Source: an uncultured Lachnospiraceae bacterium
Lineage (GTDB): Bacteria; Bacillota; Clostridia; Lachnospirales; Lachnospiraceae
Reading direction: 5' to 3'
Assembly: GCA_902768735.1 (NCBI GenBank)
Contig: CACXMK010000010.1
Location: 1-48,444 of the forward strand
DNA length: 48,444 nt
Shown piece by piece: positions 5,985 through 41,983 of the stretch. The position numbers and the translations under genes were made by a program. Position 1 is the first letter of the stretch; every line of letters begins with the position of its first letter. The notes below the pieces were generated by a model. It was not told the origin of the DNA and did no database searches. It saw only the letters and a program-made list of their open reading frames with translations.

Positions 5985-8450
5985 ATGAAAAAAGTATTGG
6001 CAGGACTTCTCACATTCTGTATGATCGCAGCCCTTGTCTCACCGGCAGGGACAGTACTCCTCGCTGGGAGCAGCACAGATCCCACGGCGGAACTTCAAAA
6101 AACGGAAGCGGCAGCGGAACAGGAGACTGCTTCTAAGCTGGAGGCCGACGCAGATGAGGTGATCGCATTTCCTCAGGATACCGCTTCTGATGAGCAGATG
6201 ATCTCCGGAGCGGCACAGTGTTTTGACCAGGCGATCCGGGATCTCTATGACAATTCCATGTCAGCGACGGACGAGGACGTCCTCGCCTCCGCGCAGCTTA
6301 TGCCCTCGGACTTCGGAGCGATCGAGAGCGCTCTCGGCGCAGGAGCGCCCGCACTCATCGCCTCGCTGAAATCCTATGAGGTGGCAAAGAGCCAATATAT
6401 GACGGATAACAACGCTGCCAATACCGTGAAAGACATCAATATTATCGAAGAATGGAAAAAGCAGGAAGAATATACTTCCTATGTTATGCCCGCGACGGAT
6501 GTCATCCTGACGCTGGTCCCCAGGATCAAGGTCACGGATTTCCGACTGGAAGACAATACCGCCGTGATGGATATTTATGAGTGGATGACGGTCGGCTACG
6601 CTCCGGACAAAGATCAGCAGGCGAGCGCTGCGGCGTACGGCTACAATTTCTCCATGAAAGCGGAACTCGACGCAAACGGCAACTGGCAGATCGCCGCTGT
6701 CGGAAATACGGAACAGAACTTTGTCTGGATGGAAGAGGAAGCGAAATATGCCTCCGAAGTCGAAGAAGCGGGAACGGATGACAGAAGAGTCGTTTCCGAG
6801 GATGGAGTCCTGGAGATGATGGCAGCTTCAGCCGCGATGACGTATTCCTACAATGTTTCCAATGCGATCGCCTATGCGGACAGATACTGCATCAACTACA
6901 ATAACTCCTACAACAGCTATAAGGGCAGGGGCGGAGACTGCGCGAACTTCGTCTCCCAGTGCCTGTATGCCGGTGGCTTCAAGCAGAATACCGTATGGTA
7001 CAAGCACAGTGTCGCCTGGATCAATGTCATGAAGCAGATCGCGCACTTCAAGCAGTACGGCTCATTCTTGAATGCGACAAACTCCAACCTGATCAAGGGA
7101 AATCCGATCTACTTCGACTGGAACGGAGACAGCACCTATGATCACGCGACCATCTGCGTCGGACGCAACAACAGCGGCATCGCGATCCTCGACTCCCACA
7201 CCAGAGATCTGTATCACGCGACCTGGACGAACTGGAGCTTTAAAAAGGCCGCGACGATCCAGCTGAGGACTTCCGGAACTGTGACCAACACGCAGGACGG
7301 CGGTTTCAAGACAGACAGCGTAGGAAAATACTACGAGTATTCGGACGGAACCCGTCTCAAGGGATGCTTTGAGACGTTTAACGGAAAGACCTATTACTTT
7401 AAGAGTGACGGTTATGTTGCAAAAGGACTGACAAAGATAAACGGCGATACCTACCTCTTTAACACATCGACCGGCGTCATGTGCACGGGATGGGTCACAT
7501 ACAGGGGCAACAGGTACTACTTCGGCACATCGGGCGCAGCCTATACCGAGTGGGAAGAGATCGACGGACACTACTATTATTTCAATCCGGATACCTGTGT
7601 GATGGCCACGGGCTTTTACAGGGTAAAGACCAAGCTGCACTATTTTGGCACCGACGGCATTGAGCGGTTCGGGTTTATCACAGTCGACGGAAAGAAATAC
7701 TATCTCGACCAGTACGGAGTAGTGCAGTTCGGCTGGCAGACCCTCGGCGGAAGGAAGTACTACTTTGATTCGAACGGCGTGATGGTGACCGGAAACGTGA
7801 AGATCGACGGCGTCGTTTACAAGTTTGACACGAACGGCGTCTGCCGCGGAAAAGCGACGGGAACGGAAGCTTCAACAGCTGCCAATACGAATACTTCTTC
7901 TACGAATACTTCCTCCGGAACATCCTCACAGAGCGGTACTTCCACCACAGTGAAGAAGGGATGGCTCAAAGAGGGTGGAAAGTGGTATTACTACAAAAAC
8001 GGCGTCAAGCAGACGGGATGGCTCAGGCTCGGAAAAGATACGAAGCGTGTGTTCTATCTGGGATCGAACGGCGCGATGCGCATCGGATGGGTAACGATCA
8101 GCGGCAGCAAGTATTTCTTTGATAATGAGGGCGTCCTGCAGAAGGGCTGGCTCAAGTACAACGGGGCGATGTACTATCTGCAGTCGAACGGCAAGCTGAA
8201 GAAAGGCTGGCTCAAGTACAACAACGCATGGTATTATCTGCAGACCAACGGCAAGATGAAGACCGGATGGCTGAAGCTGGGGAATTCCTGGTATTACCTG
8301 CAGTCAAACGGCAAGATGAAGACCGGATGGTTTAAGGATAAGGACGGTCTTACGTATTACTTACGCAGTGACGGAACCATGGCGACCGGCAGAAATATGA
8401 TCGGCGGACGCGTCTATAACTTCCGCGCGACCGGATCGCTGATCGGCTGA
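5985..8450 (+). CDS. Secreted Amidase_6 protein with cell-wall-binding repeats
   Basis: An 821-residue exported protein likely to act on or at the cell wall. A signal peptide (MKKVLAGLLTFCMIAALVSP) is followed by about 270 residues without a clear assignment. At about residues 290-410 lies an Amidase_6-type papain/NlpC-like domain: GRGGDCANFVSQ contains the probable nucleophile Cys319, and YDHATICV supplies His387. From about residue 440 to the end run many CW_binding_1 (choline-binding-type) repeats with the GWLKxxxxWYYL pattern, interrupted by a Thr/Ser/Asn-rich linker near residues 628-645. The last repeats (8140-8340) are nearly identical, suggesting recent duplication. It is monocistronic, with its own promoter and terminator. 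The exact substrate (peptidoglycan peptide or other) is not shown by the sequence. Confidence 0.88.
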   Translation: MKKVLAGLLTFCMIAALVSPAGTVLLAGSSTDPTAELQKTEAAAEQETASKLEADADEVIAFPQDTASDEQMISGAAQCFDQAIRDLYDNSMSATDEDVLASAQLMPSDFGAIESALGAGAPALIASLKSYEVAKSQYMTDNNAANTVKDINIIEEWKKQEEYTSYVMPATDVILTLVPRIKVTDFRLEDNTAVMDIYEWMTVGYAPDKDQQASAAAYGYNFSMKAELDANGNWQIAAVGNTEQNFVWMEEEAKYASEVEEAGTDDRRVVSEDGVLEMMAASAAMTYSYNVSNAIAYADRYCINYNNSYNSYKGRGGDCANFVSQCLYAGGFKQNTVWYKHSVAWINVMKQIAHFKQYGSFLNATNSNLIKGNPIYFDWNGDSTYDHATICVGRNNSGIAILDSHTRDLYHATWTNWSFKKAATIQLRTSGTVTNTQDGGFKTDSVGKYYEYSDGTRLKGCFETFNGKTYYFKSDGYVAKGLTKINGDTYLFNTSTGVMCTGWVTYRGNRYYFGTSGAAYTEWEEIDGHYYYFNPDTCVMATGFYRVKTKLHYFGTDGIERFGFITVDGKKYYLDQYGVVQFGWQTLGGRKYYFDSNGVMVTGNVKIDGVVYKFDTNGVCRGKATGTEASTAANTNTSSTNTSSGTSSQSGTSTTVKKGWLKEGGKWYYYKNGVKQTGWLRLGKDTKRVFYLGSNGAMRIGWVTISGSKYFFDNEGVLQKGWLKYNGAMYYLQSNGKLKKGWLKYNNAWYYLQTNGKMKTGWLKLGNSWYYLQSNGKMKTGWFKDKDGLTYYLRSDGTMATGRNMIGGRVYNFRATGSLIG

Positions 8451-35264: not shown

Positions 35265-35307
35265 GATGATGGTAAAAGCGTAAATAACACTGTTTTGACA
35301 TGACGAT

Positions 35308-35386
35308 AAAGGCCAGCTGTCAGCCCGTTGAAGGTCAGTATTTCATCAGGAATGCTTCCCTTCCCACGGTTTTCAGCTGGCCTTTT
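35308..35386 (+). terminator. Long-loop terminator of the hydCBA operon
   Basis: AAAGGCCAGCTG (35308-35319) pairs perfectly with CAGCTGGCCTTT (35374-35385), followed by a short T-run (TTTTG). The 54-nt interior can extend the stem through CCGT/ACGG and GAAGG/CCTTC. The remainder of this 339-bp gap holds the promoter and repeat listed next; no gene is seen in it. Confidence 0.7.
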
Positions 35387-35458
35387 GAGTAAATCAGTGA
35401 ACCGGTCTTCCGGTTGGCCTAAAATTGGGATAAAGCAGTACGAAAATCGAAAATCCGG

Positions 35459-35563: not shown

Positions 35564-35589
35564 AATAAAAGACTATAATAAAAGACTAT
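35564..35589 (+). repeat. Tandem pair of a 13-bp unit before the fusion gene
   Basis: AATAAAAGACTAT occurs twice without gap (35564-35576, 35577-35589); the AAAAGGA ribosome binding site begins right after. Confidence 0.9.
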
Positions 35590-35603: not shown

Positions 35604-38420
35604 GTGCAGGAACGGAACGGAAAAGTCTCGTATGCTGCCGTGATCGGTACAGGCACGGCGGCATTGCGGTTTTCTCGAAAACAGAATAAAAAGAAAAGGA
35701 AGCGCTATCATATCGTTGGTTTCATCGGCGATGAGAACGAGAAGCTCCCCGCTCCGAGACTGTGCGCTCTGGAGGATCTTGCATCCTATCTGCTCTCTGC
35801 GGATGTGGATGAGATCATTATTGCCATGGACCCGGACCAGGTCTATCTGATGCCGGACATTATTTCTACCTGTGAAAACAGCGGGATCCGGTATTCGATC
35901 TTCTCAGCCAGGCGGGAACCGGCCAGAGAACCGGCACCTGACAGCTCCAAGATGAGAAAGAAGATCCGGGCTTCAAAGCGCAGCAAACTGGGCAGCCCGG
36001 TATGGTTATTTCTAAAGCGTGCTGCCGATCTTATTTTGAGCGCCCTGCTGATCATCATTCTGCTGCCGGTGATGCTGATCATCGCGATCGGCGTAAGATT
36101 CTCCGGACCGGTCCTGGTCCGGGAAAAGATCGTCGGTATGCGTCGTAAATCGTTTACTATGATCAAGTTCCGAAGCATCGAGGATGTCGGGGAACTGAGG
36201 AAGCGCAGACGAAGGCGCGATACGGAAGAAGCTGACGGTAAAAAGGATGGAGAAAACAGCGTTACATCGCCGTTTCTCCTGGGACTGAGGGAGCATAAGC
36301 TTGATATGCTTCCGAGGCTATTCAATGTTTTGAAAGGTGAGATGAGCTTCGTAGGTCCCAATCCGGAGCCGCGCAGCCTCATCGCGAAATACAGGGATTC
36401 CATGCCCGGTTTTATGCAAAGGTACAGGGTACGCCCGGGCCTGACCGGCTGGGCGCGTGTGATCAGTGAACGCGGAGACATTCTGTTCCGGGAGGAGGAG
36501 TGGGTCCGCTATGACCTGTGGTATGTGCAGAACTGGTCACCGCGGCTGGATCTGAGCATCCTGAAAAAGACTTTCTTTGAAAAGAAAACATACCAGGAAG
36601 CTGTCAGGGAGAAAGAGGAGAAATGGAAAGCAGCCCTGAAAGCAAAGAAGCAGAGAGAGCAGGCACAAATGGCAGCCGCCGAACAGAGAGAAGCGGAAGC
36701 ATTGGAGTCTGCCAGAAGAAAAGCAGCAGAACAGGAGGAAAAGCGGCTTAGAGAAGCGGAAAGGCTCCTGAAAGCCGAGGCGAAGGCGGAAGCGAAGCGC
36801 ATCAAAGAAGAAGAGATGCGTCTTGCGGAGGAAAAAGAAATAACCGTGTCTGAAACCCGGCGGAAAACGGCCGCAGTGGAAGCGCGCGCAAGAAGGGAAG
36901 AGGAACGCAGGAAAGCGGCAAAGGCGCGCAGAGAGGTTTTCAGAAAACGCAGAAAAGAAACCGTGGAACTGGGAAGCGCTGCAATAAGATCCGTAAAATC
37001 AGCGCCGAAGAGAGTAAAAAGCCAGAGCAACATCATCTGGGCTATAGCCGGTCATTATGGACGGCCGTTCCTGATCGCTGCTGCTATGCTGATCCTGTTG
37101 TATTATCTGTGTTACAGGATGGATGCGGCGGTTTCCAGCGCCATGTTCGTACCTCTTAAGATCGTAAGCACACTGTTCTTTATCGTCTCCGCTTTCCTTA
37201 CGATCAAAAGAAAGAGCGGGGCGCAGGTCATCCTTCTTTTTAATCTCCTTTGGATGATCCTATCAAGAATTCTGCTCGATGATCTGACGATCGGACCGCA
37301 CGGCGCAGTCTATTTTGCGGCGATGTTCTTTTCGTTCTACTCCTGCGGGATCCTGCTCAAAGACAACTTAAGGGAGTATTTGCTTAACATCGTAACGTTA
37401 TCCATGGGCGCCATCCTGTTGCTTTGGGCTGTAGCAGGATTTCATGTTGCGTTTACAGGGCAGACGGTAAAGGGACTTGAAATGATCCGCCTGCAGGTGG
37501 AAAAGACGCCTGCGCTGATGACGTTTATCTCGTTCTTTGGAACGCACAGAAATATTTCGTCCACGTATTTTGTGATCCTGATGGGGCTTTTCATCTATCA
37601 GGTATTCAGGCACAGGACGATCTTCTGGAAGATCGCAGCCGTAATCTTTGTGCCGACCGCCTATGTCATGGTGGCGATGCAGCACAGCCGTTCCAACTAT
37701 ATGGCTGCTTCTGTCATCCTGACAGGCGCGTTATTAAGCGCGGCCATCGACAAAGCCACAGACAGAAAGAAACATGTGAACGCGCTGATCGTCGTCGCCG
37801 GCGCAGGGCTGTCACTCTTTATTTTCTTCACAGGATTTTATTACAGCAATAAGATCGTGGAATCGCTCGCCAACGATTTCAGGTCGGAACAGTCGCAGAC
37901 CCTTGCGGATACAGGGAAAAGGGCATCCGGTTCGTCGATCACCCTGACGGATCCCCGAGATCTGCAGACCGAGATCAAGACGCTGAACCGGCGCACGGAT
38001 ATCTGGAAGGCCTCTCTTACAGTCATGAATGAGGATCCCCGGATCCTGTCGGTCGGACGTCCGGAAGATCTCGTTATGGAGGCGATCAACGATAAGCTGA
38101 CACGGAAGAAGGAGCCGCATATGCACCATGTGTTCCTGCAGCAGCTGATGGTATGCGGCGCGCTCGGTATGCTCCTGTACATGTGGTTTTTCTTCACGCT
38201 CTTTAAGAGCATGTATTTGTCCCTTCGGGAGACAAAATACAGAGAAACGGTCGGCAACTGGGTGCTCGGCAGTATTTTGATAGCACTTTTCGTATATGGC
38301 ATGCTGGAGCCGCTCCTCAGCCCCAAGATCCCGTTCGCGTCGCTTTTGTTCTGTCTCATCGCAGGGTGCCTGGACGGAGAGCTGCGTAAGATCAGAAGGC
38401 AGTCAAAGACCCGCAGATGA
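35604..38420 (+). CDS. Fusion of sugar-phosphate transferase, charged coiled coil and O-antigen-ligase-like domain
   Basis: A 938-residue protein with three parts. (1) Residues 1-330 are a lipid-linked sugar-1-phosphate transferase of the WbaP/PglC kind: a Rossmann-like domain (AVIGTGTAALRFS), a re-entrant hydrophobic segment (139-162), LDMLPRLFNVLKGEMSFVGP and RVRPGLTGWARV. In relatives the catalytic pair in this motif is Asp-Glu (LDELPQL); here it is Asp234-Met235. The N-terminal four spans of full-length WbaP are absent. (2) Residues 331-460 are a long Ala/Glu/Lys/Arg-rich predicted helix. (3) Residues 478-930 have about 11 spans with O-antigen ligase/polymerase (Wzy_C) marks: MQHSRSNYMAA, RRTDIWKASLTVMNEDP and HMHHVFLQQLMVCGALG. 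Start GTG 35604 follows AAAGGA. No polysaccharide genes adjoin it. It might prime and assemble or transfer one glycan. Confidence 0.85.
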   Translation: MQERNGKVSYAAVIGTGTAALRFSRKQNKKKRKRYHIVGFIGDENEKLPAPRLCALEDLASYLLSADVDEIIIAMDPDQVYLMPDIISTCENSGIRYSIFSARREPAREPAPDSSKMRKKIRASKRSKLGSPVWLFLKRAADLILSALLIIILLPVMLIIAIGVRFSGPVLVREKIVGMRRKSFTMIKFRSIEDVGELRKRRRRRDTEEADGKKDGENSVTSPFLLGLREHKLDMLPRLFNVLKGEMSFVGPNPEPRSLIAKYRDSMPGFMQRYRVRPGLTGWARVISERGDILFREEEWVRYDLWYVQNWSPRLDLSILKKTFFEKKTYQEAVREKEEKWKAALKAKKQREQAQMAAAEQREAEALESARRKAAEQEEKRLREAERLLKAEAKAEAKRIKEEEMRLAEEKEITVSETRRKTAAVEARARREEERRKAAKARREVFRKRRKETVELGSAAIRSVKSAPKRVKSQSNIIWAIAGHYGRPFLIAAAMLILLYYLCYRMDAAVSSAMFVPLKIVSTLFFIVSAFLTIKRKSGAQVILLFNLLWMILSRILLDDLTIGPHGAVYFAAMFFSFYSCGILLKDNLREYLLNIVTLSMGAILLLWAVAGFHVAFTGQTVKGLEMIRLQVEKTPALMTFISFFGTHRNISSTYFVILMGLFIYQVFRHRTIFWKIAAVIFVPTAYVMVAMQHSRSNYMAASVILTGALLSAAIDKATDRKKHVNALIVVAGAGLSLFIFFTGFYYSNKIVESLANDFRSEQSQTLADTGKRASGSSITLTDPRDLQTEIKTLNRRTDIWKASLTVMNEDPRILSVGRPEDLVMEAINDKLTRKKEPHMHHVFLQQLMVCGALGMLLYMWFFFTLFKSMYLSLRETKYRETVGNWVLGSILIALFVYGMLEPLLSPKIPFASLLFCLIAGCLDGELRKIRRQSKTRR

Positions 38421-38614: not shown

Positions 38615-39784
38615 ATGATATTTCAAGACAGTTGGATCTTCGCAGGAGAGCGGGGATTTGTCCGCGGATCCCTTGAGATCTGCGGAGAAAGGTTCGATAA
38701 AGTAGAGTTTAGCGGCGATGTGCCGCAAGAAGTTTGCACTAAGGCAGGGAGAGAGGTATGTGGTTCCTCAGAGGAATTGTTGCTGCTTCCCGGACTGATC
38801 GATATACACACACACGGAAATTCCGGATACGATTTCTCTGACGGAGATCTGGATGGTCTTAGGTGCATGGGCAGATATCTGGCAGCTAACGGCATCACCT
38901 CATTTTTGCCGACATCGATGACGCTTCCCTATGAGAAACTGGACGCGGCATTTCGGACAGCTGCGCAGTATAAGGAGACGAGAGAGGAGAACGGAGCCAG
39001 GGTTCCGGGGATCCATATGGAGGGTCCTTTCTTTTCGGAGAAGAAAAAAGGAGCGCAGAACGCCCTATACCTCAGACTTCCGGACGCGGAAGCGGTGGAA
39101 GATCTGAACAGGCCCTGCGGCGGGATGATCCGGATCGTGGATGTGGCGCCGGAACTGACGGGAACAGAAGGATTTATCAAAGAGATCGCGGGAAATAAAG
39201 CGCAGAACTGCAGGGTTTCCATAGCACACACTGCCGCCTCCTATGAAGAGACGAGAGCGGCGTTTAGTGCCGGGGCGTCGCATGTCACGCACCTGTTCAA
39301 CGCGATGCCCGGGATCCACCATAGGGAGCCAGGAGTGATCGGCGCTGCAGTGGAGACGGAAGATGTGACGGTGGAACTGATCTGTGACGGGCATCACGTC
39401 CATCCGAGCATTATCCGCATGGCGTTCAAATTGTTTCCGGGCAGGATCTGCATGATCTCCGATGCGCTCAGGTGCTGCGGAATGCCCGACGGAAGTTATG
39501 AGCTTGGCGGGCAGCAGGTAACTCTCAAGGATAATGTGGCGCGTCTTTCCGACGGGACCATCGCAGGGGCAGCTTCGAACCTGTTCGACGATCTCAGGAA
39601 CGTTATCCGGTTCGGCATACCGGTTCACGAAGCTGTTATGGCGGCGACAATTGTACCGGCCCGGGTGATAGGCTGCGACCGCGAGACCGGTTCCATTGAA
39701 GAAGGGAAACTCGCGGATCTCATCGTATGCGATAAGGATCTGAACTTACGACAGGTCTATATCGGCGGAAAACGCATAAAATGA
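38615..39784 (+). CDS. nagA: N-acetylglucosamine-6-phosphate deacetylase
   Basis: Removes acetate from GlcNAc-6-phosphate, the first committed step in using amino sugars from cell wall turnover or chitin-like polymers. 389 residues, amidohydrolase fold. Motifs: PGLIDIHTHGNSGYDFSDG, HMEGPFFS (metal-binding Glu), SIAHTAAS, VTHLFNAMPGIHHREPG, ICDGHHVHP and ISDALRCCGMPDG with the catalytic Asp; TIAGAASNLFDDLRN closes the active site. The first metal-site motif is HTHG. ATG 38615 has only a weak GGATGG upstream. The partner nagB is not in the window. A terminator shared with the tRNA gene ends the transcript. Confidence 0.95.
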   Translation: MIFQDSWIFAGERGFVRGSLEICGERFDKVEFSGDVPQEVCTKAGREVCGSSEELLLLPGLIDIHTHGNSGYDFSDGDLDGLRCMGRYLAANGITSFLPTSMTLPYEKLDAAFRTAAQYKETREENGARVPGIHMEGPFFSEKKKGAQNALYLRLPDAEAVEDLNRPCGGMIRIVDVAPELTGTEGFIKEIAGNKAQNCRVSIAHTAASYEETRAAFSAGASHVTHLFNAMPGIHHREPGVIGAAVETEDVTVELICDGHHVHPSIIRMAFKLFPGRICMISDALRCCGMPDGSYELGGQQVTLKDNVARLSDGTIAGAASNLFDDLRNVIRFGIPVHEAVMAATIVPARVIGCDRETGSIEEGKLADLIVCDKDLNLRQVYIGGKRIK

Positions 39785-40162: not shown

Positions 40163-41983
40163 ATGACAGGAGTGATCGCCGCGGTTATGGCGGCATTGAT
40201 CAGTGCTGCCTCAGTGCTCGGCGCAGCTGACTGCAGCCAGATCATACAGGAAGCGGAAGTGAGAATACAACAAGAGGAGCTCTTGGCACAGGAGCAGCGG
40301 GAGAAGGAAGAAGCATCGGCGTTCCTGATCGCGATCGACCCCGGACACCAGGGACACGCGAATCTCGGGCAGGAACCCATCGGCCCCGGTGCGTCGTCAA
40401 CAAAGAACAAAGTCGCGGCAGGGACGAGCGGCAGAGCGACGGGCGTGCCCGAATACCAGCTGACACTCGACGTCTCGCTAAAGCTTCGGGACGTTCTTTT
40501 AGAGAAGGGCTATGAGGTGCTGATGATCCGCGAGGACAACGATGTGGACATCTCGAACGCGGAGCGGGCGAAGATGGCCAATGAGGCCGAAGCGGACGTC
40601 TTTATAAGGATCCATGCGAACGGTTCTGACAGTTCCTCCGCAAACGGCGCGATGACGATCTGCCAGACATCGTCGAATCCTTATAACAGCGAGTACTACG
40701 TGGATTCCAAGAGACTGTCGGAACTTGTCCTCGATGCGTATACGGAAGAGACGGGAATCCGCAGTGAGCGTGTCTGGGAGACGGATACGATGAGCGGGAT
40801 CAACTGGTGCACGGTGCCCGTCACGATTTTGGAACTTGGCTATATGACAAATCCCGACGAAGACAGGAAAATGCAGGATCCTGACTTCCAGGATGATATG
40901 GTGCGTGGGATTGTCAGCGGGATTGAGGCATTCCTCGAAGAGAAGAAAGCGGAACAGGGTCAAAACACCGCTGAACCGGACGCTGCCTCCACTGCGAACA
41001 CAGCAGAGGTTGCGTACGAGACAGAACCGGACGCTGCCTCTACAGCGGTTACAGCGGAGATCGCGTACGAGACAGAACCGGACGCCGCCTCTACAGCGGC
41101 TACAGCGGAGATCGCGGATGAGACAGAGCCTGACGCTGTGCAGGTCCCGGAGCACACAGAGAGATTTATGAACGTACGGATCGCGCCCGGCTTCACGATG
41201 GCGCTTTCATCCTACACGTTCAACAAGCTCTTTGAGAATACGGGCACGGAGCTCCAGGCCATCTACGAGGAGATCAAAAGAGAAGAGGAGGACGCGCCTA
41301 TGGCAGAACTGGAAAAACAGCTGAACGATGAGATCGCAAAGCTCGGAGGAAAGTGGTCGCTCTATTTCAAGCGTCTCGACACGGGCCGGGTGATCGGGAT
41401 CAATGCCGGGGAGAAGATGATCGCAGCCAGCCTGATCAAGCTCTTTGTGGCGGGCGAATTCTACACACAGACAAAGAACGGAAAGCTCAGTGAGGAGAAC
41501 TACGGGAGCAAACCTGACATCATGATCAATGTCAGCGACAACGGTGCCTGCAATACTCTTATTAATGCCGTGGGGATGAGCAACGTCAACGAATTCGCGA
41601 AAAAGAACGGCTATAAAGCCACGCAGCTCAACCGCAGGATGCTGGAATTCAACGGGACCGAGAACTATACGTCGGCCAAGGACTGCGGCGTGATGCTGGA
41701 AAAGGTGCTTGCGAACAAATATGTAAGCAAGCATGCTTCGGAGAGGATCCTTGAGAAGGGCCTTAAGGCGCAGCAGAGACGCTCTAAGATCCCGGCGGGT
41801 GTCCCGTCCGGCGTTAAGACCGCCAATAAAACAGGAGAACTGACGAACGTGGACAATGATGCGGCGATCATCTGGTCACCTGCCTGCACCTATATTCTGG
41901 TCATTATGAGCAGTAACGCAGGGAACAGGATCCCTGAGATCGTAAAGCTCTCTTCAATGGTCTACAAGGGCGTCAATCCATAA
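40163..41983 (+). CDS. Secreted amidase fused to a beta-lactamase-like serine hydrolase
   Basis: A 606-residue exported envelope protein with two catalytic domains. A signal peptide (residues 1-22) and a short helical linker precede an Amidase_3-type N-acetylmuramoyl-L-alanine amidase (about 54-260): zinc ligands His62 (DPGHQG), Glu97 and His151 (IHANG), with Glu224 (LELGYMTN) as catalytic base. A linker of three 17-residue repeats (EPDAASTAxTAExAxET) follows at 271-321. The C-terminal domain (about 375-606) is class A beta-lactamase-like with all three active-site motifs: SLIK (Ser423, Lys426), SDN (458-460) and KTG (556-558). It could cleave peptidoglycan stems and D-Ala peptides, or inactivate beta-lactams; I cannot tell which. 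ATG 40163 follows GAGAGGA. The gene is monocistronic. Confidence 0.9.
   Translation: MTGVIAAVMAALISAASVLGAADCSQIIQEAEVRIQQEELLAQEQREKEEASAFLIAIDPGHQGHANLGQEPIGPGASSTKNKVAAGTSGRATGVPEYQLTLDVSLKLRDVLLEKGYEVLMIREDNDVDISNAERAKMANEAEADVFIRIHANGSDSSSANGAMTICQTSSNPYNSEYYVDSKRLSELVLDAYTEETGIRSERVWETDTMSGINWCTVPVTILELGYMTNPDEDRKMQDPDFQDDMVRGIVSGIEAFLEEKKAEQGQNTAEPDAASTANTAEVAYETEPDAASTAVTAEIAYETEPDAASTAATAEIADETEPDAVQVPEHTERFMNVRIAPGFTMALSSYTFNKLFENTGTELQAIYEEIKREEEDAPMAELEKQLNDEIAKLGGKWSLYFKRLDTGRVIGINAGEKMIAASLIKLFVAGEFYTQTKNGKLSEENYGSKPDIMINVSDNGACNTLINAVGMSNVNEFAKKNGYKATQLNRRMLEFNGTENYTSAKDCGVMLEKVLANKYVSKHASERILEKGLKAQQRRSKIPAGVPSGVKTANKTGELTNVDNDAAIIWSPACTYILVIMSSNAGNRIPEIVKLSSMVYKGVNP
40973..41125 (+). 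repeat. Three tandem copies of a 51-bp unit encoding the amidase-hydrolase linker
   Basis: Units at 40973-41023, 41024-41074 and 41075-41125 encode 17 residues each, with a partial fourth (EPDA). The unit is a multiple of three, so copy number can vary without frameshift, changing the distance between the two catalytic domains. Confidence 0.95.

Follow-up and report, generated by a model that had tools for sequence, protein, structure and literature searches.

A Wzy/WaaL-type membrane protein joined to a probable pseudo-phosphoglycosyl transferase in two species of a Lachnospiraceae genus

Known relatives and the fused protein

Monotopic phosphoglycosyl transferases (PGTs) lie in the inner leaflet of the membrane, and WaaL and Wzy enzymes act on its outer face. 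In a 48,444-nucleotide stretch of DNA from an uncultured Lachnospiraceae bacterium (contig CACXMK010000010.1), hereafter the window, one gene encodes a protein with a PGT-derived N-terminal half and a Wzy/WaaL-type membrane domain as its C-terminal half; we call it the fusion. Three described groups come closest to it. With the large monotopic PGTs WbaP and WcaJ (PF13727 + PF02397), it shares the order of a part resembling their domain of unknown function (DUF) followed by a PGT domain, the re-entrant helix motif and the modelled PGT fold; unlike them, it is without the four-helix bundle, the Glu of the Asp-Glu dyad and the Arg of the GPRP motif, and it is joined to a Wzy/WaaL-type enzyme. The bifunctional monotopic PGTs (Bi-PGTs) also carry an extra domain on a PGT core, but the core of the fusion looks catalytically dead, and its partner is a Wzy/WaaL-type enzyme. 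The O-antigen ligase/Wzy_C family (WaaL, GT121 and related; PDB 7TPG) is alike in its hydrophobic spans and in residues R191, R265 and H313, which have counterparts in the fusion, and unlike it in lacking the 475-residue PGT-derived N-terminal extension. No PGT-Wzy or PGT-WaaL fusion was found in the literature as covered by titles and the beginnings of abstracts, a scope outside which the main survey of PGT fusions falls.

The first-pass annotation had described the protein as a single chain that joins a glycan-initiating transferase to an O-antigen-ligase-like domain. The single chain is real. A second species of the genus (genome G025) has the same fusion as one unsplit frame of 948 residues at the same chromosomal place, flanked as in the window by ClpB, NuoE-like, NuoF-like, hydrogenase, amidase and purine genes, and an assembly artefact is ruled out because the same fusion sits between the same genes in both genomes. 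The initiating activity, on the other hand, is not supported: both fusions lack two residues that every comparable non-fused PGT keeps, as described below. Judged from its sequence, the protein is a WaaL/Wzy-type transferase with a pseudo-PGT, present in two species, real and unusual, and this is our main departure from the earlier description.

The explanation we favour, with moderate confidence, is a Wzy/WaaL (Wzy_C, GT-C) membrane glycosyltransferase fused N-terminally to a PGT-derived domain which has probably lost catalysis and is retained as a module for docking or sensing at the inner leaflet. The C-terminal half would transfer a glycan linked to undecaprenyl diphosphate on the outer face, as a polymerase or a ligase. 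The pseudo-PGT would dock on the inner leaflet, with undecaprenyl phosphate, a nucleotide or a partner PGT as its ligand (the choice among them is a guess), and once docked it would place or regulate the attached transferase. The linker between them, which is variable in length, would merely connect both parts, and the glycan substrate would come from enzymes encoded elsewhere in the genome. It is the combination of lost catalytic residues and kept lipid contacts that would point to such a module instead of a second enzyme.

The PGT-derived half

Both fusions carry the PF02397 domain and the DX12P re-entrant helix motif by which the monotopic PGT superfamily is recognized. A structure prediction of the full chain, which the first-pass annotation had proposed, gave a PGT fold for this half and a model of low confidence for the Wzy half; the modelled PGT half matches WbaP (8t53; Foldseek E 3e-11, target template modelling (TM) score 0.34) and PglC (8g1n; E 1.9e-8, target TM score 0.72). 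A passage in PMC10519829 ascribes an Asp-Glu dyad with Mg to all members of the superfamily. This mark of an active PGT is absent from both fusions, which have Asp-Met in the window protein and Asp-Leu in G025.

PGTs were counted in all six frames of 163 sequences, giving 57 distinct pieces, three from the two fusions and 54 others. The motif is covered by 53 of the 54 non-fused pieces (L031, of 62 residues, does not reach it). All 53 have the dyad Glu and all 53 have the GPRP Arg, while neither fusion has either one: the Glu is replaced by Met in the window protein and Leu in G025, and the Arg by Asn and His, respectively. The dyad Asp is found in 52 of the 53, with Asn in one Verrucomicrobiota protein. 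Two earlier, smaller sets of PGTs gave the same picture, with these residues kept in 36/36 and 39/39; they held the longest non-overlapping frames only, leaving pieces such as L009, L016, L019, L021, L026, L034 and L035 outside, and the set of 39 was also without pieces below about 140 residues and without eight loci that repeat the fusions. By the first, smaller set, the fusions have both lost R176 (present in 34 of 35 others), R219 (36/36) and G225 (36/36) as well. A sequencing error at the dyad is unlikely, because at least two base changes would be needed to turn a Glu codon into the Met codon ATG, and the residue in the second genome is Leu. The different residues in the two orthologues (M/L and N/H) suggest a site freed from constraint.

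What is kept in both fusions is also informative. The residues are D142-x12-P155, K188, R229, D234, R290 and D316, and their counterparts in PglC are D11/P24, K59, R88, D93, R145 and D168; the PglC numbers were counted with an offset of 4, and R290 was placed by alignment to WbaP. The active-site residues of PglC listed in a section of PMC12802240 are K59, R88, D93-E94 and R111, the last being the lost GPRP Arg (112 by our own count on the PglC chain). According to an excerpt of PMC10519829, R88 and R145 mediate the binding of undecaprenyl phosphate, and losing them cuts activity. Could the protein then be a true bifunctional enzyme, as first described, whose PGT half uses an unusual active site to start a glycan and whose Wzy half later polymerises or transfers it? 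In its favour, the re-entrant helix motif is present along with D234, K188, R229 and R290, the PGT half looks to be under purifying selection, and PGT fusions with two functions are known as a class (mentioned in part of PMC10942596). However, the dyad Glu, the GPRP Arg and the conserved residues at 176, 219 and 225 are gone from both fusions, and the two active sites, going by family topology, would lie on opposite sides of the membrane, so that a flippase would still be needed. We consider this explanation quite improbable.

Because the catalytic residues are lost while the lipid-binding arginines are kept, the pseudo-PGT might instead be an inner-leaflet receptor for undecaprenyl phosphate, or for uridine monophosphate (UMP) via its DUF, and couple the cytoplasmic supply of carrier to outer-side transfer by the Wzy/WaaL-type enzyme; we put this forward tentatively, as a possibility. 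In WbaP, as portions of PMC10942596 describe it, the DUF mediates most of the contact in the homodimer, a nucleotide-sensing role has been proposed for it, and UMP inhibits. By analogy, the pseudo-PGT with its part of the DUF could sense a nucleotide or the lipid carrier, or could pair with an active PGT. The DUF is itself truncated and weakly matched: CoA_binding_3 (PF13727) covers residues 4-95 of the window protein at a Pfam E of 7e-4, below the cut-off, and is not listed for the G025 orthologue at E 0.1. The four-helix bundle of large PGTs is absent from the N-terminus by both the reading frame and hydropathy, since the stop-to-stop frame, at 942 codons, extends only 4 codons upstream of the start and hydropathy first peaks at residues 144-162.

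The same dimer contact makes room for an adaptor, in which the pseudo-PGT and DUF would pair with a separate large PGT and recruit the Wzy-type enzyme to the glycan-initiating complex. A candidate partner is at hand. Both fusion genomes have a separate PGT in a 492-codon frame, and in the assembled genome of the window the one other PGT, on contig C3, is large and has an intact Asp-Glu pair. Contig C2 of this genome carries a flippase, a second Wzy_C-like protein (24.7 bits, below cut-off) and a capsule-synthesis protein in a stretch without a PGT. In view of these genes on the two contigs, the suggestion in the first-pass annotation that the fusion may work alone is doubtful. Against the adaptor stand the missing N-terminal four-helix bundle and the region between DUF and PGT, near the swapped hairpin of WbaP, which at 41% identity is the least conserved of the N-terminal half. 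The phylogeny does not favour it either: a tree of 41 PGT domains unites the two fusions in a single clade (support 100/100) whose stem is 1.79 changes per site long, and this clade groups with WcaJ-like large PGTs (92/86), outside the clade of the window genome's own large PGT. We therefore think an adaptor rather unlikely. The grouping with WcaJ-like large PGTs also rules out an origin by fusion of a neighbouring small PGT. Arrangements in relatives include wzy adjoining a small PGT (L048, L049) and the order wzy-aminotransferase-PGT (L051).

Is the PGT half perhaps a passenger, a relic or simple membrane anchor beside a Wzy half that alone matters? Its active-site residues are lost, a low-complexity repeat is inserted in its loop in G025, and the gene diverges fast: the two fusions are 56% identical over aligned residues, against 90-96% for six of seven neighbours compared, the amidase being the seventh at 77%. 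The PGT half is, however, more conserved than the Wzy half (63% vs 54% identity), and its ratio of nonsynonymous to synonymous substitution rates (dN/dS) is no higher, which is unexpected for a relic. A Nei-Gojobori comparison of the two fusions puts dN/dS at 0.24 in both the PGT and the Wzy half and at 0.22 in the DUF region, compared to 0.03-0.12 in the seven neighbouring genes; these ratios are rough, since dS is about 1.5 and synonymous sites are near saturation, and the value for the linker is undefined. Both halves look to be under purifying selection, with no simple decay. A mere passenger is thus unlikely in our view.

Three other PGT fusions were met in the genus, and all keep the dyad. 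L056:5899-8397 (minus strand, genome G030) is a frame of 832 residues with a dyad-intact PGT and a flippase domain (Polysacc_synt above cut-off and a weaker MurJ match), that is, by its domains, an initiator and a flippase in one chain. L055:7376-10078 (plus strand, G005) has 900 residues, with the PGT in mid-frame (279-458) and a C-terminal stretch of about 440 residues in which Pfam finds nothing. L058:1182-3359 (minus strand, G028) is a 725-residue fusion of a family-2 glycosyltransferase and a PGT.

The membrane half and the linker

In the C-terminal half, Pfam finds Wzy_C (PF04932) at residues 687-860 of the window protein with an E of 3.7e-6 and 27.2 bits, below the cut-off of 31.7, and in the G025 protein with 37.6 bits, above it. 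A two-row profile built from the C-terminal halves of the fusions matches that of five separate proteins of the genus, all of them Wzy_C by Pfam (5/5), at probability 99.2 (E 8.9e-20, 371 columns); it also matches a second set of seven (probability 94.3, E 1e-7, 135 columns), which in turn matches the solved polymerase/ligase 7TPG at E 6.5e-14. A first, looser profile of eight Wzy-like proteins found no solved relative. In part of PMC10920833, WaaL R191, R265 and H313 are described as the diphosphate-binding and acceptor-activating residues of the O-antigen ligase. Counted along the 7TPG alignment, they fall on R696, R797 and H841, identical in both fusions, so that the two Arg and one His of the WaaL/Wzy_C active site are all present. 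The GN2-type HNX9GX2G motif (PMC12502699) is exact in G025 and reads HH in the window protein, as counted by eye. The first-pass annotation had left room for the C-terminal half to prove foreign to the Wzy/WaaL superfamily; the profile matches and the three residues indicate that it is a member. The annotated Wzy_C kinship stands, and the number of membrane spans comes out slightly different, at 10 in this half of each protein by a simple hydropathy scan instead of about 11.

The two membrane parts are separated by a highly charged linker (charged residues make up 55% of it in the window protein and 59% in the G025 protein), in which AlphaFold places one helix from 313 to 413. It had been suggested that this helix holds the domains at a fixed distance. 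That is unlikely, because the length differs by about 50 residues between the orthologues: measured between the shared KKTY and GxxGRP pieces, the window protein has 152 residues and the G025 protein has 103, and the linker of the latter is a tandem repeat of 21/42 bases at the DNA level. We also rejected a coiled coil that would serve as a fixed spacer: the window protein shows no heptad signal (P 0.53 at period 3.5), and the signal in G025, which none of 500 shuffles equalled, lies in the stretch of the DNA tandem repeat. For a single alpha-helix, the charge pattern is significant in G025, whereas the window protein falls short of significance (P 0.14-0.15 at spacing 4).

Several points weigh against a pseudo-PGT docking module on a Wzy/WaaL-type transferase. 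The comparison set of PGTs is a non-random sample, made up of those closest to the query and of their neighbours. The idea of a freed site draws on two sequences, as only two fusions are known. The D234 nucleophile and the counterparts of K59 and R88 remain, and the PGT half may have residual or altered chemistry. The AlphaFold model of the Wzy half has predicted local distance difference test (pLDDT) values mostly of 35-60, and its putative GT-CB fold is therefore read from sequence profiles.

Distribution, neighbourhood and meaning

The same domain order was looked for in other Clostridia, as the first-pass annotation had advised, and outside the window genome it turned up once, in G025. Among 62 genus genomes searched with the C-terminal half, seven match: the two fused ones, and five with weak matches in frames of 495-543 codons. 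There was no further fusion in 392 genomes of the order (seven others match weakly, in frames of up to 638 codons), in 397 of the family (five others, weak) or, with the two-row profile, in 391 of the class (three others, in frames of 416-498 codons); these samples partly overlap, and a fusion with a strongly diverged Wzy half could escape the search. One family match lies in a 779-codon frame (G689), and its locus, L135, has a PGT in a separate 610-codon frame; the locus gives no match to the Wzy profile. Although 789 plasmid records match, none has one place covering 80% of the query; no relative was found among viral contigs, and a PHROGs search found nothing. Long Wzy_C frames of at least 651 codons occur in 14 genus regions, of which 13 were covered (the 14th is in G029), and in none of the 13 does a frame join a PGT to the long frame; five have a separate small PGT frame (L138-L141, L145). 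Pfam, run on seven of the 13 long frames, gives Wzy_C in all seven, above cut-off in one, and nothing else above cut-off. Six regions (L138, L139, L140, L141, L144, L145) hold Wzy_C proteins of 849-1010 residues with a long, non-PGT N-terminal part that has no Pfam name above cut-off, and a separate small PGT frame is found in five of these six.

A search for conserved gene neighbours, also proposed at first, gave a divided answer, since the flanks are the same in G025 but the fusion is absent from the hydrogenase locus in 18 genus members. These were read in pieces of 7-18 kb around the hydrogenase gene and are the members with at least 78% identity among 34 others that match this gene at E 1e-150 or better. 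In L108, L109 and L111, whose pieces reach tRNA-Met and the amidase, the slot is filled by other genes; the neighbourhood is thus conserved, but the slot that the fusion occupies in it is variable. The amidohydrolase gene that adjoins the fusion (window 38615-39784) has its G025 match on another contig, so the slot between the hydrogenase gene and tRNA-Met varies beside the fusion too. It is worth adding that the two fusion-bearing genomes are incomplete (86% and 67%), which makes absences in them weak.

In the window, the fusion gene stands alone among housekeeping genes (Table 1). Upstream are genes for SecA, a release factor, a carbohydrate phosphorylase, Rho, trigger factor, ClpP/X and ClpB, as well as NuoF-like and iron-hydrogenase genes; downstream are the amidohydrolase (NagA-like by reading), tRNA-Met, an amidase/beta-lactamase-like protein and purine genes. 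The lack of a polysaccharide cluster around the gene was correctly noted at first: none of its genes was found by Pfam or NCBIfam among the 28 other window genes scanned, which belong to transport, housekeeping, glycogen, cell-wall amidase, hydrogenase and purine functions, with two unmatched. A different hairpin can be read in G025 at the place of the window hairpin, which is perhaps the terminator of the upstream operon; with a hairpin upstream in both genomes, the fusion gene is probably its own transcription unit. An AGGA-type ribosome site can be read upstream of it, and a perfect 13-base tandem duplication (35564-35589) lies just before the start codon.

Two other proteins of the window may be recorded here. 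One, at 40163-41983, combines Amidase_3 and beta-lactamase-like domains in a single protein and is 77% identical in G025; the other, at 5985-8450, is a cell-wall protein in which choline-binding repeats occur together with an Amidase_6 domain.

Table 1. Positions in the window of the fusion gene, its parts and the hairpin before it
Feature	Position	Strand	Remarks
Strong hairpin between hydrogenase gene and fusion	35308..35387	+	-43.6 kcal/mol for 35300-35395, z -6.8; not listed by a simple terminator scan
Fusion gene	35604..38420	+	938 aa, GTG start; probable pseudo-PGT, charged linker and Wzy_C/WaaL-type membrane domain
Truncated DUF (CoA_binding_3-like, Rossmann-type), residues 4-95	35613..35888	+	Weak Pfam match; model pLDDT about 53-84 by ten-residue block
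PGT domain (Bac_transf, PF02397), residues 138-325	36015..36578	+	Pfam E 3.8e-43; re-entrant helix motif D142-x12-P155
D234-M235 at position of catalytic Asp-Glu dyad	36303..36308	+	Asp-Leu in G025 orthologue
N253 at Arg position of GPRP motif	36360..36362	+	His in G025 orthologue
Charged Glu/Lys/Arg/Ala linker, residues 329-475	36588..37028	+	Modelled mostly as long helices, 313-413 and 422-457
Wzy_C/WaaL-type membrane domain, residues 476-938	37029..38417	+	Pfam, profile comparison
R696 (= WaaL R191)	37689..37691	+	Profile alignment
R797 (= WaaL R265)	37992..37994	+	Profile alignment
H841 (= WaaL H313)	38124..38126	+	Profile alignment

The fusion carries a warning for annotation, since a protein named a sugar transferase by a domain match can be without the residues for that reaction. 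Should its PGT half act as a receptor or adaptor without catalysis, nature would here have converted the fold of an initiating enzyme into a module for regulation or targeting. The protein would then physically link the first and last steps of surface glycan assembly, and it would offer a direct test of how cells share their small pool of undecaprenyl phosphate between pathways.

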